From positions 1-22,168 of the IMG/VR virus record IMGVR_UViG_3300020183_000508: a DNA stretch of 22,168 nucleotides, one strand, 5' to 3'. Positions 1-11,504 of this stretch are shown here, piece by piece. The notes under the pieces are model-generated. The model worked only from the letters and a program-made list of their open reading frames with translations. It was not told the DNA's origin and did no database searches. Source of the DNA: a virus. Numbering within the stretch: position 1 is the stretch's first letter; each line of letters begins with the position of its first letter. Both the position numbers and the translations under genes were made by a program.

Positions 1-1728
1 TTGCTTGTCTATTTGTTTTTCCAACACTTCTTTTGAAGACTTCGACTTGGCTGAGTTTCTATAAAACGAACGGCCGTCAAAAATATCAAGACCAGAATTG
101 TTTGTAATAGATAATGCTATTCCTTTGCTTTTTGCCAGTTCCTGTAGTTTTACCGCTTCCTCCACCCTGCGTAGATTTTCAAAATCATCCGCCAGTTTTG
201 CAAATCTATCCACGCTGTCTATGCGAACTGCAACATCTCTTGGGATGGCATTCATTGGCCTCATCCCGGACAATATGTTTTCAATAATCTTTTGCTCATC
301 TTTTGTCGCCGCAAAACTGCGTTTCATTTTTTCTTGAATTTTGTCCAGTTCTTCTTTTGACATCCTGTTGGGGTCGTTGTCATCTGGTGGTGATGGCGGT
401 GCCGGAGGAGATGCGACCATCAGCTCCGGTTCTTCGTCTACATACTCAGTTACTGGTAGGTATTTTAACTGTCTTGGCTTTTGGGCAATTTCCCCTGCCG
501 TTGTTGAATTTGTTGTATCAAGCGACCTAAATGGCACCCTTACTTCCTCTATGTCATCTGGATTTATCCCACCGACAATCAAAGCATCCCTGTTGCCCCA
601 AACACCATTCATTTGCGGTCGGGTTTTACCGTTGTCGCTTCGGTATGCATTGAAGTCGTTTTTGAATTTTCCGTAAAGCAGTTCGACCGCATGCAAGTCG
701 CGTTCGTCAAATCTGCCATGCGGGTCAATTAACGCACGCCCTATTTCGTCAGAATCGGTTGAGTTTGTCAGAACCGGATAAATGTGATTATCAAGTGCGT
801 CACCATTTCCGTAGGCGGTTCTTTCCCCCACCTCTGGTTTGAGAATTATTTCTGCGTCGCCAAAGACAGAGTTAAATCCGTTGTTAATATTTGTGGTTTT
901 GGGATTGAACAAATTGAACTTATAGCGCGGTGAATTTACGTCAACTTTATTCGAAAACTCCTTAAATGCTTCTTCTGCATGTGCAAAATCAGCATCTGAA
1001 TGAACAACATAACCAGTGATTGGCCGTTGACTATCTGGCAGGTCTGATGGAATTCCAATATCTGCCTCGTATGCCTTTACGCGCTCCGAAAGACGTCGCG
1101 GTTTATTTGAGTCATTCCTCTTTAGGCCGCTCTGCATAATCTCCATGAGTCCTGTGGTGTCTATGTTTATGCGCGGCTTTGGGTCAATTCCGGCGTGGAA
1201 TTCAATTGCCGCTTGGCGCAGGTCGGCCATTAGTTCTTGTTCATCGGTTTTTCGTATGTAGTCACCAAAACCCGGGTCAAGTCCATTCATTATGTCCCGC
1301 ATGGGCATCGCTGCATTGGAGCCTTTCGGCGGTCCGCCGAATCTATCGCCTATGTAATTTGGACTCATTGGGTTATCGTATGCGTCAATGTAACTTGATT
1401 GCATTCCTACCACAAATCCATTTTTGTCAAATATGTACCTGGGGTCGCCACTGGCTCTTGCCAAATCGCCCTGGCGTTTCAATTCGTCCCATTCTCTTGT
1501 GCCTGGGATTGGCTCGCGGTACATCATGTCGCTCATTTTTTCATTGCCCGAATTCGAGAAGTTTTTCATTCTTCCTATAATTGCGCGTCTATTCTGAATT
1601 CTTGCTGGTTCGCTTTGTTCAAGAGTTTCTGGGCGCCATGACGTTCTTCCCGACAGAGACGAATAGTATTCCCGTGTTTGTCGTTTGCCAAATTCTGGAG
1701 TAGCTCGCAAGGCGGGTGACCTTGTGGA
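1..1728 (-). other. C-terminal visible module of the giant polyprotein (residues 1529 onward, incomplete)
   Basis: After the last clear I-x-G-x-M motif the protein continues with two weaker look-alikes (LSGRT with Thr1557, IIGRM with Met1582). A folded region follows at about residues 1690-1900. It contains RINIDTTGLMEIMQSG, then RPITGYVVHSD, then EIILKPEVGERTAYGNGDAL. This order of a short strand-helix block, an R-P-x-x-G-Y block and an E-R-T-x-Y/F-x-x-G-D block faintly recalls DUF3626-type and ADP-ribosyltransferase-like proteins of Actinobacteria; I hold this only weakly. A Pro-rich stretch (SPPAPPSPPDDNDPN) and charged helices rich in Lys/Glu follow to the window edge. Where the protein ends is not visible. 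Confidence 0.4.
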
Positions 1729-4700
1729 CATTTTTCCAGAAATTCCATCGCCTAAGTATTTTGATAATTCTGATTCCCACTCTTTTACGTCGCTATCAAA
1801 AACGTCTTGAGTTCTCTTAACATATTCCCTCCGTTTGTTAGCGTCAAGGGCATCCGTAGACCAATTTTTTTGTATTGCTCCATCAATCAATCTTCGCATT
1901 GATTCTGCTGTAGCCTCAGCATCTTTGTCCGCTCTGTGGTGCTCCTTGCCGAGGGGAACACCCAAATATTTGGTAATGTCTGCCAAGCCGTTTGACGGAA
2001 CATTTTCTTGTAGGTCTTTATCAAATTTAAAAGGACCGTCTGGTTTTTCTTTGGAGTAGCGCGGAAGGGTCATTGAGGCCATATCTTTTAAGTCAATCCA
2101 TCCTTTTGCCTGCCAGTCAATTCCAGCCTCGCGAAGGGTGTCTTCCAAAACGTTTTTGTCGTATGCTGCGTTCTGTACGCCCATTATCGCGTTTGGACCG
2201 GCAAACTCAACAAGCTTTCTGTGCCCAGATTCCAGTGATTCCATTTTCTGCAAGTATTCATCTGTCAGCGGGTTGCCGTCCGCATCACGCAGGTTGTCTT
2301 TTGACCACTGCTGGAGCGGCTTGCCAGGATTAACAAAAACATTAAATCTGTCTATAACTTGGCCATTTTTAACCTTGATTGCGCCAATCTCAACGGGATT
2401 GCCATTTTCTAATGCTCGGCCGTATGTGTCAAAAACAAGTCCTGTTGTTTCGTAGTCGAGAAAAACAATTTCTTGGTCGTCATATTTTTTTCTGAATTCA
2501 TCCCAAGAACTAATTCCTTCAAAAATTCGTTCTGCGTCGCCGAGCATTGGCCCATAGGTTGGGGTTCTTGGGTATTGGGGAACGCCTTGTTTGTTTTTCT
2601 TAATTCTTGAGGTTGACATACTTCCAGATATTGATTGCCGTGCGTCTTGCGGCTTAGGTGTGAAATTTCTTTTTGCCCACATATCTTTTGAAAACAAACG
2701 CGAACGCCCATTAGGACTTAGTTTTGCTATTCTATCCGCAGTTACTGTCCATTCATCGAAATTTCCGCGTGCGTTGTTTGGTAACCTAGTTCTTGCAATA
2801 AGTGGACCCTTATCCGAGCCTATGACATTTAGCTCTCCGTCGCTATTTCGGGCTCTTCGCAGCTCGTGGTTATACATTGGATGTCGCGTGGCGTGAGCAG
2901 AAACTAAATTTCTTTCTTGCGCAAGTTGCCTTATTTTTTCATCTACCTCGCTGTCTGACATTTTGTCAGTGGTTCCGCCCCCTACAAAAGAAAAACGCGC
3001 TCCAGCTTTTTGCAAGCCCTCCAATACCTGCTGATTCCTATTGTCGTTGTCGTCCGAATCGTAAGTAACAATTTGTGTTGATTTAGGCAGAATGAGACTT
3101 CGACCAACTGCTGGTGTCAATATTGTGTCAACACCATAAAGATTATCTATGGAGCCTGGATTTAGTTCTAGGAACTCGTTCATGTTGAAGATAACTGCTT
3201 TTTTAGCTTTAGAACCACTGCGCTCCATGTGGCCGAGCACGCGATGATTTAGTCCGACATGAACTGTGTTCCTATTAGACCCGGTGTGGTCTCCATGTGG
3301 TTTAAGAATAAAATTACCATTCTCATCCTGTTCTACATCAAATGGAGTTTCATGAACCGCATAAAGGTCCGTAAATTTCATTTCATCAATATTTATGTCT
3401 TCCCATTCAGAGCGGCGATATCTGGAACCGCCGGGAATGGTTTGGATATCTCTATGTGTCTGCATTTGGGGGTCAATTGACGTTATGGGTTGGTTTTGCT
3501 TGTCGTGTATTTTTCTTTCTGCCAATTTAACCAATCGTTCGCCGCGTTTTACAAGCTCATCGTATTCTCTTTTTGCCGCAGCATCACCAGTTGATGCGCG
3601 ATAGAGAAGTTCGTCCACTTGGTCGATAGTGTAAGTCTCTGCTCCATCCATTAATTCTGGGTCCCCGGCGGCCACCAATGCATACGTATAATTAATTCCG
3701 AGTTCTCTGCCTTCATCGGAAGACTTGTCAACACCGGAAATTTCAAATGGATTTCTGTTTGGTATTGTGTCCGGCGACTTGGGTGCGCTTGACATTTTTC
3801 CAGATATCGGGGTGTTCGGCTCATCTGCTGGAGCAGCAAATCTCACCCGGTTGATGTACTCCTCCCACTCGCGCCTTTCTGCATCGGTGCGGGGAGGGTT
3901 GGCTTTCCAGTCGCGCACCGCATTCGGACCAAGAGTCGTCTGCAGCATCATTGGTATCATCGGTCTTTCTTTGCCAGTCGATGCGTTTGGATTATTTGTG
4001 TTTGGTGAACTCAAAGTATCTCGGTTTTTCCAGTCTCGAGAACCAGATGTTCTCTCATTCTGCGAGCCGGGCTTCATTCTTCCAGTAATTGAAAATTCGT
4101 TATCGTTTCTTCTTCGTCGCGAATAGTTTTGGTCAACAGCTCTTCTTACTGCTTGTGTTTTTAATGTTGGTCGTTGTGCCGGACTGGAACTCGACATTTT
4201 CCCAGTGATATTCCACTTATCGCCAGGGACATTAAACACCCTTTCGCCAACATCGTCTAAGTCTGCTCGAATTTGTGCAGAGGTTTTTAATGAGCCTTGT
4301 TTTGCGGCCATTGCGCTAGCAAACTTATCCACCGTGGCGGGCAAACCGGTTTGGCCACCAGTTAATTTTGGGTCTCCAAAAAGTCTTCGAGCCGCATAGA
4401 ACTCTGCGCGGGTTTCTAGGTTGTTGGTGGCTCCATATACGCCGCCAGCAAATTGTCTCATGAGCAATTGGTCGTCAGCATTATCAGTAATGTTGTTCTC
4501 TATTGCCTCGCCTAGCGCGTTATGGAAGTTGTTCAAATCAGTTTCTAGGTCCTGTTTTGTGTAACCAATAACATTTCCCCAAGTTCCAGAACGGTAATAT
4601 TGTCTAGTGCTAAGATTTGTGGCAGAATCAATTAGAAGTTGAACGCTGGCATTTCCGGTGGGATTTTGCGCATTTCGAAAATCAATAATCCATGCGTTAG

Positions 4701-6312
4701 AAAACCTCTCTCGTTGCCACTGTGCAGTTGGCATGCCTTTGGGTTTTACAAGTTTGCGGGCAACTTGATATCTCTGTAGATTTGCAGTTTGAAAACCCAA
4801 CGTTTCCATTACCGATGCAAAGTGCATGAGGTGACCAAATTCGTGCGTGGCCAAATAATGCATGTCTCCTTCGACAGAGTCAGCAATTCCGTTTGCTCTT
4901 CCGTTTCTGTCAAACCCTGTTGAGCTCATTTGTTTCCACATATTGAATGGATTCATTTTTAAGGTAAATTGCACTCCACCCTGTTCATAGGCATTTTGTT
5001 TTGCGGCATTGGCTGCGGCTTGACTAATTCTTCTTCCTCCAGTTGCTGGAGATGGTGCGGCGGGTAATAGTTGGACCTCAAATGCGGAACCCATTTTTTC
5101 ATCTATTTCCATTGTCGTTACCCATTTTGCTTGCTCTGGGTTTGCAATCGCCTCCGCTATCCATGAATACCAATATTGCAGTAGCCCTTCTTTTAGTTTC
5201 CGTTTTTCTCCCCTGCTTAGCTGTTGCGGAATTGCCTTATCAAACATTTCTTCTATTTCATCTACGGCTACATTCGGGAACAATTCAGACATCACTGAAA
5301 CAAACTGATTTTTTTCGCTTATATCGCCAACAGGCCGCCCCTGTGGGAAGCCTTGACTTGGAGGAAGTCTCAATGCGTCTGGACGGTTGTAATATTTTTG
5401 GGCTCTTTCTCGTGTGTCGCGCGCAAGTTGAGTTGCTCTTTGACCCCTCCATAGTTGTTCTCGGAAGCCGAGCAAATAAACTCCCAGTCCACTGTCTGGG
5501 TGCTGTCCACCCTTTAAAGCGCTACGCCTGCCGCTGGGGACTCTGGTGGAAGCCTTGCGTATTCTTCCACCCGAAAATGCGGAAGGAATGCGCATTGAAC
5601 CAGCTATTCCTTCTGAGGTCGGAATAATTCTCCCGCCATAATCAATAGCGGACTGCACTTGCTCAAAGCCAAGGTCTTGAATTCGTTGTGTAGCGGCCCT
5701 TGCCCCAGCTGCTCCACCTTGTGCTCTTTCGCCGGTGGCTGTTGTTGCTTGCGCTATGGCATTAGCGGTTCTGCGCACCGCTCGCGCTCCGCTTTGCACT
5801 GCAGTTCTGGGAGATGGTATAAAACAGTTTGACCCAGTTATGTCAGTAAATTGATTAGCGGCAGGAGTTCCTGGAGGGCATCTAAGTTTATTTTTGTCAT
5901 CAACCCACAATCCTCTGGAGTTTGCTGCTCTTCTCAACAAAGATTCAAGACTGTCTTTTAGTTTTCTGCCAAGAACTTTGTATTCAATATCCTCAGGTTC
6001 GCCGGATTTGAATTTTGTTGGAGAAACGTGTCTGTGTGTGGACTGCATAAATGTTGAGTCCACATCAAGCGTGTTTGGATTAAAGGTGCAAAACTGCATC
6101 TTTTTCCCCGGTGGTACCAAGGGTATGACATCCCCGGGTTCCCAAGTTTTAATATATTCTTCGTACGGGTTGGAATACTTTTCTTGGGGTTTTGTCTTCT
6201 CCGGTTTGTCGACTTTTGTATTTACTTGAGGGGTAAAACCTATTTCTACAACGTCATTCCTGGACAGCTGTTTTAGCCTGCGGTCCGCAAAATTGGAATA
6301 TGATTGACCCAC
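1..6312 (-). CDS. Giant modular phage polyprotein (partial, 3' end outside window): metallopeptidase, DnaQ-like exonuclease and other modules
   Basis: The frame is open for 2104 codons from a GTG at 6310-6312 to the left edge; I checked each codon line for stops. The GTG start is supported by AGGAG six bases upstream and by an in-frame TAG at 6322-6324. Order of parts: residues 1-235, N-terminal region with a Cys pair (C145, C163; CPPGTPAANQF); 240-706, module with HEFGH (H490, E491, H494) and a later RAEFYAA (E637); 706-840, linkers; 840-1232, unrecognised module; 1232-1528, DEDDh exonuclease (D1286, E1288, D1385, H1459, D1464); 1528 to edge, further module ending in charged helices. Motif I-x-G-x-M recurs with Met at 240, 706, 746, 840, 1232 and 1528, lying between domains. 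The gene follows the portal, protease and acidic protein on the same strand, so a virion or head-associated role is likely (inference). Whether it is cleaved is unknown. Confidence 0.9.
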   Translation of the reverse strand, partial: MGQSYSNFADRRLKQLSRNDVVEIGFTPQVNTKVDKPEKTKPQEKYSNPYEEYIKTWEPGDVIPLVPPGKKMQFCTFNPNTLDVDSTFMQSTHRHVSPTKFKSGEPEDIEYKVLGRKLKDSLESLLRRAANSRGLWVDDKNKLRCPPGTPAANQFTDITGSNCFIPSPRTAVQSGARAVRRTANAIAQATTATGERAQGGAAGARAATQRIQDLGFEQVQSAIDYGGRIIPTSEGIAGSMRIPSAFSGGRIRKASTRVPSGRRSALKGGQHPDSGLGVYLLGFREQLWRGQRATQLARDTRERAQKYYNRPDALRLPPSQGFPQGRPVGDISEKNQFVSVMSELFPNVAVDEIEEMFDKAIPQQLSRGEKRKLKEGLLQYWYSWIAEAIANPEQAKWVTTMEIDEKMGSAFEVQLLPAAPSPATGGRRISQAAANAAKQNAYEQGGVQFTLKMNPFNMWKQMSSTGFDRNGRANGIADSVEGDMHYLATHEFGHLMHFASVMETLGFQTANLQRYQVARKLVKPKGMPTAQWQRERFSNAWIIDFRNAQNPTGNASVQLLIDSATNLSTRQYYRSGTWGNVIGYTKQDLETDLNNFHNALGEAIENNITDNADDQLLMRQFAGGVYGATNNLETRAEFYAARRLFGDPKLTGGQTGLPATVDKFASAMAAKQGSLKTSAQIRADLDDVGERVFNVPGDKWNITGKMSSSSPAQRPTLKTQAVRRAVDQNYSRRRRNDNEFSITGRMKPGSQNERTSGSRDWKNRDTLSSPNTNNPNASTGKERPMIPMMLQTTLGPNAVRDWKANPPRTDAERREWEEYINRVRFAAPADEPNTPISGKMSSAPKSPDTIPNRNPFEISGVDKSSDEGRELGINYTYALVAAGDPELMDGAETYTIDQVDELLYRASTGDAAAKREYDELVKRGERLVKLAERKIHDKQNQPITSIDPQMQTHRDIQTIPGGSRYRRSEWEDINIDEMKFTDLYAVHETPFDVEQDENGNFILKPHGDHTGSNRNTVHVGLNHRVLGHMERSGSKAKKAVIFNMNEFLELNPGSIDNLYGVDTILTPAVGRSLILPKSTQIVTYDSDDNDNRNQQVLEGLQKAGARFSFVGGGTTDKMSDSEVDEKIRQLAQERNLVSAHATRHPMYNHELRRARNSDGELNVIGSDKGPLIARTRLPNNARGNFDEWTVTADRIAKLSPNGRSRLFSKDMWAKRNFTPKPQDARQSISGSMSTSRIKKNKQGVPQYPRTPTYGPMLGDAERIFEGISSWDEFRKKYDDQEIVFLDYETTGLVFDTYGRALENGNPVEIGAIKVKNGQVIDRFNVFVNPGKPLQQWSKDNLRDADGNPLTDEYLQKMESLESGHRKLVEFAGPNAIMGVQNAAYDKNVLEDTLREAGIDWQAKGWIDLKDMASMTLPRYSKEKPDGPFKFDKDLQENVPSNGLADITKYLGVPLGKEHHRADKDAEATAESMRRLIDGAIQKNWSTDALDANKRREYVKRTQDVFDSDVKEWESELSKYLGDGISGKMSTRSPALRATPEFGKRQTREYYSSLSGRTSWRPETLEQSEPARIQNRRAIIGRMKNFSNSGNEKMSDMMYREPIPGTREWDELKRQGDLARASGDPRYIFDKNGFVVGMQSSYIDAYDNPMSPNYIGDRFGGPPKGSNAAMPMRDIMNGLDPGFGDYIRKTDEQELMADLRQAAIEFHAGIDPKPRINIDTTGLMEIMQSGLKRNDSNKPRRLSERVKAYEADIGIPSDLPDSQRPITGYVVHSDADFAHAEEAFKEFSNKVDVNSPRYKFNLFNPKTTNINNGFNSVFGDAEIILKPEVGERTAYGNGDALDNHIYPVLTNSTDSDEIGRALIDPHGRFDERDLHAVELLYGKFKNDFNAYRSDNGKTRPQMNGVWGNRDALIVGGINPDDIEEVRVPFRSLDTTNSTTAGEIAQKPRQLKYLPVTEYVDEEPELMVASPPAPPSPPDDNDPNRMSKEELDKIQEKMKRSFAATKDEQKIIENILSGMRPMNAIPRDVAVRIDSVDRFAKLADDFENLRRVEEAVKLQELAKSKGIALSITNNSGLDIFDGRSFYRNSAKSKSSKEVLEKQIDKQ
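1729..1743 (-). repeat. I-x-G-x-M motif copy 6 (ISGKM) in giant polyprotein
   Basis: Encodes ISGKM (Met1528) followed by STRSPALRATPE. It follows the DEDDh exonuclease, so that domain is bracketed by two copies. Confidence 0.75.
1732..2616 (-). other. DEDDh (DnaQ/RNase T-like) 3'-5' exonuclease module inside the giant polyprotein
   Basis: All three exonuclease motifs are visible in order. Exo I: IVFLDYETTG (D1286, E1288). Exo II: MGVQNAAYDKNVLEDTL (D1385). Exo III: HHRADKDAEAT (H1459, D1464, giving H-x-A-x-x-D-A). This is the complete DEDDh set used by DNA polymerase III epsilon, exonuclease X and RNase T to bind two metal ions and remove nucleotides from 3' ends. Length (about 180-200 residues) matches the family. 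It is flanked by ISGSM upstream and ISGKM downstream, so it sits as a discrete unit. No polymerase is nearby, and location within a head-gene polyprotein is unusual. The substrate (DNA or RNA) cannot be told. Confidence 0.85.
2617..2631 (-). repeat. I-x-G-x-M motif copy 5 (ISGSM) in giant polyprotein
   Basis: Encodes ISGSM (Met1232) followed by STSRIKKNKQGVPQ. It precedes the DEDDh exonuclease. Confidence 0.75.
2620..3792 (-). other. Unrecognised module of the giant polyprotein (residues 841-1231)
   Basis: A folded-looking region bounded on both sides by the I-x-G-x-M motif. Notable segments are LYAVHETPFD, then HTGSNRNTVHVGLNHRVLGH near residues 1005-1025, then YGVDTILTPAVGRSLILP, and a later NLVSAHATRHPMYNHELR. 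The mixture of His, Arg and Asn in short conserved-looking blocks suggests an enzyme rather than a linker. I do not recognise the family. It ends with a segment rich in basic residues (SRLFSKDMWAKRNF) just before the next motif. No function is assigned. Confidence 0.5.
3793..3807 (-). repeat. I-x-G-x-M motif copy 4 (ISGKM) in giant polyprotein
   Basis: Encodes ISGKM (Met840) followed by SSAPKSPDTIPNRNP. It precedes the unrecognised module. Confidence 0.75.
4075..4089 (-). repeat. I-x-G-x-M motif copy 3 (ITGRM) in giant polyprotein
   Basis: Encodes ITGRM (Met746) followed by KPGSQNERTSGS. Only 40 residues follow copy 2, so the piece between them is a short basic peptide rather than a domain. 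Confidence 0.7.
4195..4209 (-). repeat. I-x-G-x-M motif copy 2 (ITGKM) in giant polyprotein
   Basis: Encodes ITGKM (Met706) followed by SSSSPAQRPTLK. It marks the end of the metallopeptidase module. Confidence 0.7.
4198..5592 (-). other. Zincin-type metallopeptidase module inside the giant polyprotein
   Basis: This is the stretch between the first two I-x-G-x-M motifs (residues 241-705). The sequence THEFGHLMHF at residues 489-498 has the HExxH zinc-binding and catalytic pattern, with a further Gly as in many zincins. A downstream ETRAEFYAARR segment (E633, E637) could give the third zinc ligand, as in gluzincins. The flanks (MNPFNMWKQMSSTGFDRNG before, a long helical region after) fit a folded domain of about 250 residues. 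The metallopeptidase call rests on the motif and the helix around it; the family is not identified and the substrate is unknown. It could act on host proteins after injection, on cell-wall peptides, or on virion proteins. Confidence 0.6.
5593..5607 (-). repeat. I-x-G-x-M motif copy 1 (IAGSM) in giant polyprotein
   Basis: Encodes IAGSM (Met240), followed by RIPSAFSGGRIRKASTR, a basic Ser-rich linker. It is the most divergent clear copy (Ala in place of Ser/Thr) and separates the N-terminal region from the metallopeptidase module. Confidence 0.55.
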
Positions 6313-6381
6313 TTGTTGCTCCTAAGCGGCACCAAAAACCGCAATGACCTAACTAAGTTGTGGAACAACAACCATATTAGC

Positions 6382-7908
6382 TTATTCAGGTTTTGGTTTG
6401 TTGATTTCCTCTTCGATGGACATCATTTCAAATTCCATCAAGTTTGACAAAAAGTCCGTTACTTCTGACTTTTCCTCAGCGGTGTAATCTTTCTTGGCTT
6501 TTTCCATATCTTCTTTGGAGACCCAACTTAGTGGGACTGCCTCTTCCAGACCAAGGTCTACAGCTCTCTTCATAATGTGAGCTTTTGCCGCTGATTTATC
6601 CTTGGCTCTACCAAATGCCTGAATGGCATTTTTGAGGTCAGCTTCATCCTTGATTGGAAATGAACCGTCAGGCAAGGCAAGTCCAGCTTTCGCCATTGTG
6701 CCTCGAGACTCTTCCGAGTAAGCGCGTTTTAGTGCAATCTCGGCTGCTTCAGCTTCAATCTCGGAAGCCTCTTCTTGGGTGTATTCGTCGTAGCCAAGAA
6801 CCTCACCATCTAGGCCAACGAACACATCATACGATTTGCCATTGACGCCTTCGATTTCTACGGCATAAACATCAAAACCCTCGAACACGTCTGGTTCAAC
6901 AGCAATGATGTCACCCTCGACTGACTTAACGGCAATGTCTGCCGCCTCGCCAAAGCTAATCATCACTTTGTTCTGCAGTGCCGACTTAACTTGAACAACA
7001 TCTTGAGTGAGCATGTGCCAACCCATAACTTCACCGGTTGAGCCGTCGAAGAACACCTCGACCGGCTTGCCATCTTTGCGTTCAACGTCAACAATGAAAA
7101 GGTCAGCTTCATCCGAGTAACCAGAGTCAAGAACCTTGCCCCTGAACATGTCTTCTGCCATACCTTCAATTTCGATTAGCGCTGGCATTCCCTTTTCGGA
7201 AACACATCCGCCTGGGCAGCTGTCGCAGACACCGGCGCCACCTGGATAGACCTTGCGGTCAAACCCACAAACGAACGCACTGTCATCAAAATCGGCCGAC
7301 TTATATCCCATCGTGCCAAGTCGACGTCTGCGCATCTTCTTGCGAAGCGCAGATTCATCAGTGTACATATTTTCTTGGTCTTCGTCTTCTTCTAGCTCGA
7401 CGTCGGCATTGGGGCCCATGACCATTGCGCCCTTTTTCTTTTTCTTTGGTGACGCCCGACGTATGAGCATTTCGTCAATGTCGTCATCTTCGGCATACAT
7501 TTTTTCGTCAAGGTCTTGCATGTCTTCGTCGTCTTCGTCGTCTTCTTCATCTTCTTCGTCGTCATCCATGCCCTCTTCGTCGTCGTCCATGTCTTCCGCG
7601 TCCATGTCGTCGTCTTCGTCGTCAACGAGCTCCATGTCTTCGTCTTCCATCTCCTCCGTGTCTTCATCGTCTGGAGACATTTCATCGTCCAGGTCGGAAT
7701 CCATCGCGGCCATATTGAGCATGTTCTTTTTCTTGGCCACTTTAACTTCGGTGCCGTCATCATTCTTGACCGAAAGAGCCATTGCCCCACATGCGCCACA
7801 AACCTTTGCGCCCGCCGAGTACCCACATTCAGCACCATCAAGACCCTTGGCACAGCTAACAACTTCACCGTTGGCATTCAACTTTACGACTGCTGCTTTT
7901 TCGCTCAT
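6382..7908 (-). CDS. Acidic phage protein with two Cys clusters, PepSY-like repeats and a DUF6582-like C-terminus
   Basis: A 508-residue protein in the head-gene operon. Visible parts: a Cys cluster (C19, C28, C37, C40) resembling a zinc ribbon; residues 70-145 made almost wholly of Asp, Glu and Met; a lysine run at 155-159; a second cluster (C214, C228, C231, C235); two strand-rich units at about 258-297 and 325-375 ending in FFDGSTGEVMG and FVGLDGEVLG, which look like PepSY-type repeats; and a C-terminal segment at about 410-462 (LPDGSFPIKDEADLKNAI to VPLSW) of DUF6582 type as seen in many phage head proteins. The ATG is preceded by AAGGAG. Placement after portal and protease fits a scaffold, capsid-associated or decoration protein. 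It does not look like an HK97-fold capsid protein, so I do not call it one. Confidence 0.85.
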   Translation of the reverse strand: MSEKAAVVKLNANGEVVSCAKGLDGAECGYSAGAKVCGACGAMALSVKNDDGTEVKVAKKKNMLNMAAMDSDLDDEMSPDDEDTEEMEDEDMELVDDEDDDMDAEDMDDDEEGMDDDEEDEEDDEDDEDMQDLDEKMYAEDDDIDEMLIRRASPKKKKKGAMVMGPNADVELEEDEDQENMYTDESALRKKMRRRRLGTMGYKSADFDDSAFVCGFDRKVYPGGAGVCDSCPGGCVSEKGMPALIEIEGMAEDMFRGKVLDSGYSDEADLFIVDVERKDGKPVEVFFDGSTGEVMGWHMLTQDVVQVKSALQNKVMISFGEAADIAVKSVEGDIIAVEPDVFEGFDVYAVEIEGVNGKSYDVFVGLDGEVLGYDEYTQEEASEIEAEAAEIALKRAYSEESRGTMAKAGLALPDGSFPIKDEADLKNAIQAFGRAKDKSAAKAHIMKRAVDLGLEEAVPLSWVSKEDMEKAKKDYTAEEKSEVTDFLSNLMEFEMMSIEEEINKPKPE

Positions 7909-7910
7909 GT

Positions 7911-8276
7911 TTAGTGCTCCTTGTATTGCATTGAACTAGAAATACAGCCCTTTACGTTACTACATCCAGCACATGGGTCCATGCGCTTTTCTCCAGTAAC
8001 CATGCAGTTGTATTTATTAAAAATCCGTTGATTATGTATAGGTTTAGCATAACCCATAGAAGACGCATCACGGCTGACGTTTGGTCTTTGCTTTCTCACC
8101 GAAAATCGCGAAGATTTTTTTTGGTGCGACCCGTATCGAGGTGATTTTGGTCCGAGGGCTTTATTTTCCAGATGTCTATTAATCTCATTATTGTATTTAT
8201 TGACAGACTTGGCGTCGCAGTTAATAATTGATTTGTCGCGCAAACGAATCAAATGATTTAGATAATTCAGGCTCAT
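7911..8276 (-). CDS. Small basic Cys-containing protein of unknown function
   Basis: A 121-residue protein placed tightly between the protease polyprotein (stop three bases upstream of its ATG) and the acidic 508-residue protein (ATG two bases after its stop), so it is part of one operon. It is basic and polar in the middle (SHQKKSSRFSVRKQRP). Near the C-terminus it has CMVTGEKRMDPCAGCSNVKGC, four Cys that could bind a metal ion. No signal peptide or membrane segment is seen. I do not recognise the family; a minor head or assembly role is suggested only by position. Confidence 0.7.
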   Translation of the reverse strand: MSLNYLNHLIRLRDKSIINCDAKSVNKYNNEINRHLENKALGPKSPRYGSHQKKSSRFSVRKQRPNVSRDASSMGYAKPIHNQRIFNKYNCMVTGEKRMDPCAGCSNVKGCISSSMQYKEH

Positions 8277-8279
8277 CGA

Positions 8280-11200
8280 CTATCCCTGCGGGAAGATTCT
8301 GTCCAGCTCTACTTCCTCAATATTGGTGTCGAGATACGTTGCGTATATTGCTCGAGATATTGCCTCAATCGAATCATCATTAAGCTCATGGGCGCCAAAC
8401 ACGTTCAATCCATTTTCGGCTTGAGTAATTCGAATTCCATGAAAATTGGCAACAGTGTCAACAACTTGTTTAACTTGAGTTACAAATTGTGGCTCTATCT
8501 TAATGAATACCGGTTCATCTATTGTGCTTTGAAGTGCAGTCTTTACGGCAATATCATTGCCTTCCGAAACTGAAACATAAACGGAAGACAAAGATTTTCT
8601 TCTGTTTTTCATCATTTGCGCCGCCCGAACCATACGCTCAGCAGCCAACTCTCTTCGCAAAGCTCTACGAACTTGCGATTCTGTCAAGTTATTACGTTTG
8701 GCTATCATCGCAACAGCTCTTTCTTTTGCCCTTTGGGGAACACCAGATAGATTTGAAGGGTCCATCTCTATTTCCCTTAACTGACGAAGCATGGACTGTC
8801 TTCTCGTTTTTCTTGAAGCCAATGGTCCAGTTACGCTTTCTGCTGGCTCAAGCAACTGATTAATAACGCTAACTATATCGTCATTGAACTTCTTTGCGGC
8901 CGCCTGCACCGCCGGTGACTCCATACCGCGCGCCTGCAGCTGCTGGTAGATGTATCGTTCATTATCGTAACGAGCCGCATCAAGCTCTCTGGCCAATTTC
9001 AAATCCCTCATTGCTTGCCGCTTGGAAACCTTTCCTTTTCGTTTCCGCGCTTCTAGAGATTCCCTTCCTTGTCTAAAAAGACTTTCTAATTTCGATGGAC
9101 GAGGTGAGAAAGAATCCGGTCGACTTGGTCGACGGGCCATTTGACCGGAAATCGTTGGACCGTCACCTCTCGGACCACCCCTGCCGCGCCCTGGGGAATT
9201 AACTACGTTTCTAGTATTGCCCAATGTTTCAGAAAGTTCGGGAGATGGGCGACCCGGTTTTTTTGTAGCTCTAAGTTTTTGCATATGTCGTTGCTCTGCT
9301 CGACGGATGTCGATTCGTTGTACGCCATATCTTCTAGCTTCTTGTTCCAGTGAAGAACCTGCCATGCGACGCTTGTATATCTCTGCATCGAATTTTCCGG
9401 CTTTCAAATCTTTGGCCCGTTTTTGTTTTTTCGACGTCATCCTTCCGGAAATTGCGCCTGGTTTTGCTGGCTCTCGTTCTGGCACCGCTGGCTCAGGTGT
9501 CGGTGACGGCGCTGGACGCGGGTCTGGCACTGGTGCTGGACGTGGAGCCGGGCGAGGAACTTCATGCGGTTTTGGGATACGAAGCGGCTGGGGTTCTTTT
9601 TGGGGTACTTCTTTAGGCACTCTTCGCGGCGGCATCATTCTTGGCTTGAGGTTGTCAATGTCTGGTTTATACGGAACATTATCCCTTCCGTCGCGTCCAG
9701 TCCTAAATCCGTCGCCATCGCCGTCGAATTCCGAAGGTTTTACCATTCTTGCAGCCCTTCGACCAATCGCCCTGGCGCTTCTACCAATACGAGCAAATGC
9801 TTTTTGCTCTACGCCCTCAACAGCGGTAATGACCGCATCGCGTGCGTCTTTTTCGTACCAATCAATATTTGGAATTACAAAACCATCTGAAAGAAGCTCT
9901 ACATCAAAGCCGTGATATTCGGAAACTTGATTAGCTACCTCAAACATCTCCATGTTCTCTGTTTTGATGAATAGATGAACTCCTGGATTCTCTGCTTTGA
10001 ATTCTTGCCAGCTAGAAAACGGACTTGATTTTCCGCCACATGCTCCACCGCATCCACAATCATTTGTTTTTGGCATGGCGAGCATATTCGGACTTCTTGG
10101 CACTGGGCTGCCAGAAACTTGTCCATTTGAATCGATTGGTAAATAAATTGTTTCAACTCGAACTTGCTGAGCTGGTCCAAACATAAAATCAGATTCATTT
10201 GGTGTGTGATATGTGGCGCGCATTGTTTCAACCCTGCCGTCTTTGGAGAGGTCAAAAACAACATTGTTGCTATCTGCTTCACGAACTGCGACTTCCCCGC
10301 CAAAATGAGTAGAGATTGCTTTTGCCAAATTGCCCATTCGTCCAATTACCGGATTTTCCGAAGGATTGATAATTGAATAGATTTGGATGTTTTTCTGTTC
10401 TACAACATCATCATCTGATTTCTTTTTTGAATTTTCATAGCGCTCAAGCAAGCGTCTTCCCTTCGCTGCCAATTTTGCTGCGTCCGACCTGTCTTGTGGA
10501 ACTGGTTCACCCCACGCCGCGGCAGAAAGAGCCAAACGAGTTGGCCTTCCCTTGTCATCTTTCATTGGGCCAGACGGATTTGTGAAAAAACGTGTAAGGA
10601 AAGACCCCTTGCGACGCATTTTCTCTGGAGTATTGGCAGGACCTTTTACTCCGGGCTTTAAGTTTGCACCCTCAGTGCGCTTGAAATGCGCGCGGCCCGC
10701 GGCGGTCAATCCGCCCTTCGGGTCGCGAAGTGCAGACTTTTCATCTTCTTGTTCTTCTTCGGATTTTCCATCTATGGGCACACAGTTGGGAACCATTTTC
10801 CCACCTTTGCCCTTTTTCATGCCGACTTGTTTATATCCTGGCCAACATGGACCTTGTTGATTTTTTGTTTCGGTATTTGAATCATTAAGTTTGTCGGACT
10901 TAATCGAAATTGTTCCGGTTAATTGATTCGCGCCATGCAAAACAGGACTAACTTCGTAGAGCTCAACTTCTTTAAGCATGTTCGCTTGTTTTTGTGCATC
11001 AAATACGGCGTCGAGTGTTTTGTAACCAATTGACCATTCTTGCTCTTCGCCAAAAAACTTTACATTGGCAAATGCTTCACGACCTTTTTCGGATGCAAGA
11101 TTAAATTGAACTTTTGCAAATAAACCCCCTACTCCATTTGTCCTCATTTTTACAGGAAGTCTTGGGTCGTTTGGCCCAACTTCATATATCTCAAGCACCT

Positions 11201-11420
11201 TTCCGATTGGCTCATTCCAGTTGTGACCCCACACAACCCTTGGCTTACGACGACTCAGGGAGCCATTGAAGCAACCCGGCAAGCAGATGTCCCCGACGCT
11301 GTCTTTGTTGCCAATTGCGGCGACAAAACACTCAACAATTCCCTTCGAGTCATTTGTGCTAATTTGACCAGGGATGGCCTTGTACTGAGTTTCAGTAAAG
11401 TCTATTGCGGCGTTGCTCAT
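8280..11420 (-). CDS. HK97-type prohead protease with a very long modular C-terminal extension
   Basis: Serine prohead protease at the N-terminus (residues about 25-175): VVWGHNWNEPIGKV gives His66 and EQEWSIGY gives Ser130, the pattern of the S78/U35 family that trims capsid proteins during head maturation. Usual members are about 200 residues; this one is 1046. The extension holds a CWPG...PNC segment (C192-C213); a DUF6321-like block (about 232-330); a Cys-rich CGCGGACGG (455-463); a duplicated strand-helix domain (about 345-400, 480-540, 970-1030); an acidic DGDGDG loop at 566-571; a Pro-rich linker (595-655); ISGRM (Met661); a basic helix-turn-helix-like stretch; ISGQM (Met761); and a basic helical region. 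The ATG at 11418-11420 (MSNAAIDF), with GGAG upstream, is preferred over a TTG at 11450. The 84 bases before the gene contain a small AT-rich inverted repeat (11441-11458). Confidence 0.9.
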   Translation of the reverse strand: MSNAAIDFTETQYKAIPGQISTNDSKGIVECFVAAIGNKDSVGDICLPGCFNGSLSRRKPRVVWGHNWNEPIGKVLEIYEVGPNDPRLPVKMRTNGVGGLFAKVQFNLASEKGREAFANVKFFGEEQEWSIGYKTLDAVFDAQKQANMLKEVELYEVSPVLHGANQLTGTISIKSDKLNDSNTETKNQQGPCWPGYKQVGMKKGKGGKMVPNCVPIDGKSEEEQEDEKSALRDPKGGLTAAGRAHFKRTEGANLKPGVKGPANTPEKMRRKGSFLTRFFTNPSGPMKDDKGRPTRLALSAAAWGEPVPQDRSDAAKLAAKGRRLLERYENSKKKSDDDVVEQKNIQIYSIINPSENPVIGRMGNLAKAISTHFGGEVAVREADSNNVVFDLSKDGRVETMRATYHTPNESDFMFGPAQQVRVETIYLPIDSNGQVSGSPVPRSPNMLAMPKTNDCGCGGACGGKSSPFSSWQEFKAENPGVHLFIKTENMEMFEVANQVSEYHGFDVELLSDGFVIPNIDWYEKDARDAVITAVEGVEQKAFARIGRSARAIGRRAARMVKPSEFDGDGDGFRTGRDGRDNVPYKPDIDNLKPRMMPPRRVPKEVPQKEPQPLRIPKPHEVPRPAPRPAPVPDPRPAPSPTPEPAVPEREPAKPGAISGRMTSKKQKRAKDLKAGKFDAEIYKRRMAGSSLEQEARRYGVQRIDIRRAEQRHMQKLRATKKPGRPSPELSETLGNTRNVVNSPGRGRGGPRGDGPTISGQMARRPSRPDSFSPRPSKLESLFRQGRESLEARKRKGKVSKRQAMRDLKLARELDAARYDNERYIYQQLQARGMESPAVQAAAKKFNDDIVSVINQLLEPAESVTGPLASRKTRRQSMLRQLREIEMDPSNLSGVPQRAKERAVAMIAKRNNLTESQVRRALRRELAAERMVRAAQMMKNRRKSLSSVYVSVSEGNDIAVKTALQSTIDEPVFIKIEPQFVTQVKQVVDTVANFHGIRITQAENGLNVFGAHELNDDSIEAISRAIYATYLDTNIEEVELDRIFPQG
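9138..9152 (-). repeat. I-x-G-x-M motif (ISGQM) in protease extension
   Basis: Encodes ISGQM (Met761) followed by ARRPSRPDSFSPRPS. The 100 residues between the two protease-extension copies form a small basic unit. Confidence 0.75.
9438..9452 (-). repeat. I-x-G-x-M motif (ISGRM) in protease extension
   Basis: Encodes ISGRM (Met661 of the protease polyprotein) after a long Pro-rich linker and before TSKKQKRAKDLKAG. Same motif and same kind of basic linker as in the giant downstream polyprotein. Confidence 0.75.
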
Positions 11421-11504
11421 TGTTTGCTTTGCTCCATGGTGTTTATCCAATAATAAACAATTAAACGATGGTTCTGGCGAAACTATTCTTGTCTTTTAGT
11501 AAAC

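Follow-up and report, generated by a model that had tools for sequence, protein, structure and literature searches.

Long polyproteins encoded between the portal and capsid genes of a group of tailed phages are punctuated by copies of a short motif that ends in methionine, and several lines of evidence strongly support this motif being a functional joint between modules. The motif, its uniformity throughout each lineage, its swapping at homologous joints, its position in disordered segments at module borders and the small residue that follows the Met are given by the sequence itself. We consider it probable, though well short of certain, that the motif serves these head-operon polyproteins as a short linear signal for processing: a phage-encoded protease would cut after the Met (M|S/A/G), so that giant chains would yield single-module proteins (exonuclease, zincin, NUDIX, zeta kinase, ADP-ribosyltransferase, helix-turn-helix (HTH) arrays and others). 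The modules would probably have been brought into the prohead still joined in a few long chains. We infer from these sequences the cut itself, its place after the Met, its timing and the packaging of the pieces. The existence of a consensus for each lineage would be explained if one enzyme reads dozens of sites, because all of them would then drift together with its specificity.

The window, by which we mean the whole stretch of DNA analysed, is a 22-kb fragment (22,168 nucleotides) of a virus record. Its minus strand carries, in order, a portal-MuF fusion, an S78 protease with an extension, a 121-aa ORF, an acidic 508-aa protein with weak similarity to PepSY, and a giant ORF; we take the acidic protein for a putative scaffold. 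The giant head-operon polyprotein (1..6312, minus strand), which has orthologues in relatives, starts at a GTG and has its 3′ end beyond the window, leaving 2104 aa visible. The prohead (S78) protease and its multi-module C-terminal extension occupy 8280..11450 (minus strand). This ORF matches PF04586 with an E value of 3.9e-11 (Pfam Peptidase_S78 domain, aa 34–181; 10908..11351, minus strand), and thus an S78-family protease lies in the same operon as the motif-bearing giant. We collected 80 relatives via the portal and used long stretches of 15 records, extending to the capsid gene where present; six further records from motif-less lineages were added later. ORFs between the portal and capsid genes of these phages reach 6466 aa, and the S78 protease forms the N-terminal module of motif-bearing chains of up to 5467 aa.

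An earlier, sequence-only reading had described six copies of I(S/T/A)GxM in the giant and two in the protease extension, and all eight were recovered. Those in the giant (pattern I[STA]G.M, all on the minus strand) are IAGSM at Met240 (5593..5607), where Gly and mostly Met are kept in orthologues; ITGKM at Met706 (4195..4209) and ITGRM at Met746 (4075..4089), both with Gly and Met invariant in 13 orthologues; ISGKM at Met840 (3793..3807), which has a displaced copy in near relatives; ISGSM at Met1232 (2617..2631); and ISGKM at Met1528 (1729..1743), which orthologues keep. The Mets at 240, 706, 746 and 1528 are retained though their flanks diverge. The protease extension contains ISGRM at Met671 (9438..9452, minus strand), which aligns with GPVGAM and LSGAM of other lineages, and ISGQM at Met771 (9138..9152, minus strand). 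These two Mets were previously numbered 661 and 761 from an ATG; the offset arises because the ORF list begins at a TTG (position 11450) ten codons upstream. Residue shuffling (20,000 shuffles each) predicts 0.043 copies in the giant and 0.021 in the protease ORF, with a maximum of 2, and the looser pattern [IVL][STA]G.M is absent from the other 16 window genes. There are also two look-alikes: IIGRM at Met1582 of the giant (1567..1581, minus strand) shows no conservation in orthologues and is probably not a site, and VIGRM at Met372 of the protease ORF (10335..10349, minus strand), the status of which is uncertain, lies where the protease core is conserved and is kept often, not always, in relatives.

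The letters of the motif vary by lineage and are near-uniform inside each phage. Fourteen genome sets (the window and 13 relatives) were scanned with lineage profiles, at a threshold set to admit roughly one site by chance in each (the relative G028, an L-class phage, joined the sample later). Each set yielded 4–40 sites, almost confined to the long portal-to-capsid polyproteins. The consensus is I(S/T)GxM in the window's lineage, ISGRM-G in G005, LSG(S/A)M in G008, G010 and L054, PSGSM in G018 (24 sites), GPVGxM in G012 (15 sites), DSGAM in G009 (40 sites), (T/P)EAGM in G011 (33 sites), xAGM in G015 (36 sites) and DAEAGM in G016 (39 sites). Across these versions the Met is nearly invariant; it follows the sharpest prefixes without exception (P[ST]GS., 19/19; D[ST]GA., 21/21; ISGR., 13/13). 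Strict patterns occur 1.2–1.9 times per 1000 aa in long head ORFs, against 0.15 outside the portal-capsid interval. Furthermore, 54 head-operon ORFs longer than 800 aa contain 208 motifs, and the 47 head-operon ORFs shorter than 500 aa (9087 aa) contain none. No such repeat was found in cultured phages that encode a related protease (Gordonia GMA6 and Hanem, Brevibacterium Cantare, Streptomyces Gilgamesh). We noted in Gilgamesh an unannotated protein of 4624 aa, gp48 (L125:4764-18638), which lies between portal-MuF and protease and lacks a repeated joint motif.

When lineages are aligned with each other, the partner's own version of the motif stands at the aligned place for 139 of 223 motif sites, as compared with 69 of 3239 random positions (2%); these counts include repeat comparisons of one site with several relatives, which are not independent events, but the two proportions lie far apart. 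An end of cross-lineage homology lies no more than 10 aa from a motif in 54 cases (23 expected; maximum 36 in 500 trials), and 191 motifs, against an expected 334, fall within cross-lineage alignments. In proteins with Pfam matches, only 2 of 117 sites lie inside a Pfam domain, compared with 9.7 expected by rotation (P = 0.0014). Homology ends and gene fusions with no nearby motif also occur, some of each. In an AlphaFold model of aa 690–1580 of the giant, all five motifs are in segments with pLDDT below 50, and the exonuclease, folded at about 1235–1520, starts 3 residues past Met1232 and ends 8 before Met1528. The position of this exonuclease cassette in the giant varies between orthologues, and the motif at its end is retained. 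The placement of copies between recognisable domains, proposed from the window by itself, is borne out there by RNase_T (Pfam, 1283–1470, between Met1232 and Met1528) and by the HExxH module (241–706). The Ser/Pro/Arg/Lys-rich linker reported after each copy is a roughly correct description that needs amending, in that the low-complexity stretch is usually on both sides. Homologous-joint swaps, domain avoidance, homology borders and disorder are together the basis on which we regard the motif as a joint.

Three of the motif-bounded modules of the giant, all on the minus strand, are a zincin-like metallopeptidase (aa 241–706, 4195..5592, with HEFGH at aa 490–494), a module of no named family (aa 841–1232, 2617..3792) that recurs in another polyprotein of a different lineage, and a DnaQ-type exonuclease (aa 1233–1528, 1729..2616). 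Searches of Pfam and PHROGs named neither module 841–1232 nor the zincin module nor the C-terminal module of the giant. Among the motif-delimited modules of all lineages are DnaQ-type exonuclease, NUDIX, zeta toxin/kinase, DnaJ, ADP-ribosyltransferase-like, Clp_N and arrays of sigma-70 region-4-like HTH; several biochemically unrelated domains thus share one polypeptide encoded beside virion structural genes, in the portal-to-capsid operon. Because the domains are cargo-like and their operon position is between portal and capsid, packaging of the modules in the head is plausible. The delivery of enzymes along with the DNA that the sequence-only reading raised would draw on these two features as well. 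Runs of the sigma-70 region-4-like units were observed within polyproteins of G009 (L094:16729-19998) and G016 (L111:3658-11028).

What might happen at the joint is suggested by the residue after the Met. We defined 265 sites by P5–P1 alone, leaving P1′ out of the definition. P1′ is Ser, Ala, Gly or Thr in 216 of them (82%), Lys or Arg in 33, Asp or Glu in 6, a large hydrophobic residue in 6 and Pro in none, as against frequent Pro from P3′ on (12.8% at P3′). This pattern fits that expected of a bond cut after Met. The sequence-only reading had offered either cleavage or a docking tag; the small P1′ residue, the lack of Pro and the absence of sites from the short ORFs lead us to favour the former, and cleavage of the polyprotein after Met into single-module proteins appears a better reading than docking.

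Which enzyme might read the motif? The best-fitting candidate is the HExxH zincin carried in the polyprotein, which we would credit as a serious possibility while stopping short of calling it probable. A protein with HExxH that is homologous to window module 241–706 is present in 15 of 15 motif-bearing phages, and these homologues conserve the H, E and H together with a later Glu. The model of the window zincin has a pLDDT of 77; the two structures closest to it are both zincins (Z 8.3 and 6.8), which stand above the unrelated rows, and Foldseek by itself returned no significant match for this model. The zincin is the most diverged of eight families compared, with identities of 47% within and 18% between motif classes (values uncorrected for relatedness). 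Of the six motif-less lineages whose portal-to-capsid operon is complete (G023/G038, G030, G031, G032, G034 and G036), five lack it (again uncorrected for relatedness). Presence of the zincin is an imperfect predictor of the motif, because G036 is motif-less yet has a related zincin; this lineage instead repeats DGDGDGF..NPxTGRD. Fast divergence of the zincin does not by itself show that it reads the motif. We also observed a DGDGDGF..NPxTGRDxxP element ahead of linkers in L075, in G036 (L179/L180; five copies) and, as one copy, in the window protease (aa ~575–600).

It is somewhat unlikely, in our estimation, that the sites are cut by the S78 prohead protease that heads the polyprotein, perhaps through parts outside its nearly fixed domain. 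In its favour, this protease stands at the N-terminus of a motif-bearing chain, and prohead proteases are known to cut head cargo at a repeated motif. Against it, the identity of the S78 domain is 86% within and 78% between motif classes, the residues around its WGH and SIGY blocks are nearly constant across motif types, and the domain is little changed, with the same capsid protein N-terminus, in all six motif-less lineages; capsid maturation would therefore not need the motif. Being near-fixed across motif types and present in motif-less relatives, the S78 domain is unlikely to set the letters of the motif and is probably not the specificity determinant, contrary to the initial proposal that the prohead protease makes the cuts. 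Capsid N-termini lack the lineage motif. Their GGxNGANM sequence, which we considered as a site, was rejected: it is often followed by Pro and is constant across motif types and motif-less relatives. Another head protein is ranked third as the possible cutter, after the zincin and S78.

A motif that docks could also drift in concert, as binding to a co-evolving partner would predict equally well. That partner (the scaffold, the inner wall of the capsid or an HYDWWAFPIDRGS domain) would anchor the chain, uncut, in the prohead; a linker position suits a binding motif, and docking too could need the small residue after Met. A domain of about 160 aa with the pattern H..HYDWWAFPIDRGS..YG is present in 13 of 14 motif-bearing genomes and in 0 of 7 motif-less ones (uncorrected for relatedness). 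However, a tag would be needed on the short head-operon ORFs too, and these carry no motif; the sharp P1′ rule and the tendency of sites to stay out of domains, one to each joint, look more like a scissile bond. We therefore judge docking unlikely. The H..HYDWWAFPIDRGS..YG domain, which has no name, is found at G005 L089:4717-5220, at G018 L114:14100-14627 and in relatives.

We give very little credence to the possibility that the motif Met is a start codon from which modules are translated separately as well. Proteins typically begin with Met and then Ser, Ala, Gly or Thr, and in two relatives an annotated-like start falls on the motif Met; however, both cases are explained by a candidate −1 frameshift, with the motif in frame in the linker. 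Upstream matches to Shine-Dalgarno do not exceed synonymous-codon randomisation (z from −2.8 to +1.1), substitution of GTG or TTG (Val/Leu) for the ATG of a site is very rare, and the Ser, Gly, Pro and Asp of the sites use all their synonymous codons. The candidate programmed frameshift, CCA AAA AAA GC(A/G) TAA, was observed in G010 (L100) and G028 (L128/L129), at joined reverse coordinates 27728/27818 and 29576/29651, where it joins an ORF of about 700 aa to a zeta-toxin module through a linker with LSGAM or IAGSM in frame. A stand-alone zeta-toxin gene, the start of which matches the motif in fused relatives, had looked like proof of cutting; we dropped it as independent evidence because the motif persists in the upstream frame behind a slippery A AAA AAA G. 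It is equally hard to credit that the motif is a functionless duplicated linker or chance low-complexity repeat, for the linkers are indeed rich in simple sequence, but the flanks of the copies are unrelated and their codons differ while P5–P1 is kept, and orthologous sites change letters in concert, so that the homologous-joint swaps contradict this idea.

The putative processing after Met at such joints can be set beside three known systems. T4 gp21 cuts at (I/L)-x-E and phiKZ gp175 at S-x-E. The SPN3US prohead protease (gp245) cuts at A-X-E and prefers Ser at P1′ (PMC10052503). As in those phages, many head proteins here share one short lineage-specific motif with a fixed P1 and variable P3–P5; there, in contrast, cuts mostly take a terminal propeptide off separate proteins, whereas here dozens of joints lie inside polyproteins, P1 is Met and the S78 domain stays constant despite changes of motif. 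A capsid protein with the same cut motif, as would be expected of prohead-protease substrates, was not found in our search of capsid N-termini. The polyvalent proteins of phages and conjugative elements, as described in passages of PMC5512222 (Iyer, Burroughs, Anand, de Souza and Aravind, 2017), are also very long head-operon proteins that join ADP-ribosyltransferase, metallopeptidase, nuclease, NUDIX and kinase domains, and their embedded metallopeptidases, zincins among them, are proposed to process them; a zincin-like metallopeptidase is similarly among the domains here, with HExxH in all motif-bearing relatives. Those passages describe neither a repeated short inter-domain motif nor lineage-wide drift, and the fusion of motif-bounded cassettes to the prohead protease itself is a difference on our side. 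RNA-virus polyproteins likewise have a protease embedded in them, and consensus cut sites recur between their modules; unlike them, the present case is a tailed DNA phage with several polyproteins per head operon and no families in common. The literature searched contained no account of a joint motif that is repeated in phage polyproteins and drifts by lineage.

More tentatively still than the zincin assignment, we suggest that these phages may follow a true polyprotein strategy: several chains of up to 6500 aa would each be cut at dozens of copies of a lineage signal by the embedded zincin, not by the prohead protease, and cassettes would be exchangeable between chains and phages provided that the local signal is present on them. 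If the joints are cut, opaque giant phage proteins would become readable cargo lists with known ends, in a group with hundreds of contigs, and the enzymes carried in a phage head could be predicted. Cutting would also provide a tailed-phage example of RNA-virus-like polyprotein processing, and would put at hand a set of proteases that have changed specificity in concert with dozens of sites. Apart from the motif, we noted an N-terminal block, (L/M)RCPPGTPxANQFTDxxxxxC(F/M), in head-operon ORFs of different lineages: it occurs at aa ~142–170 of the window giant, in L069 and in L075.
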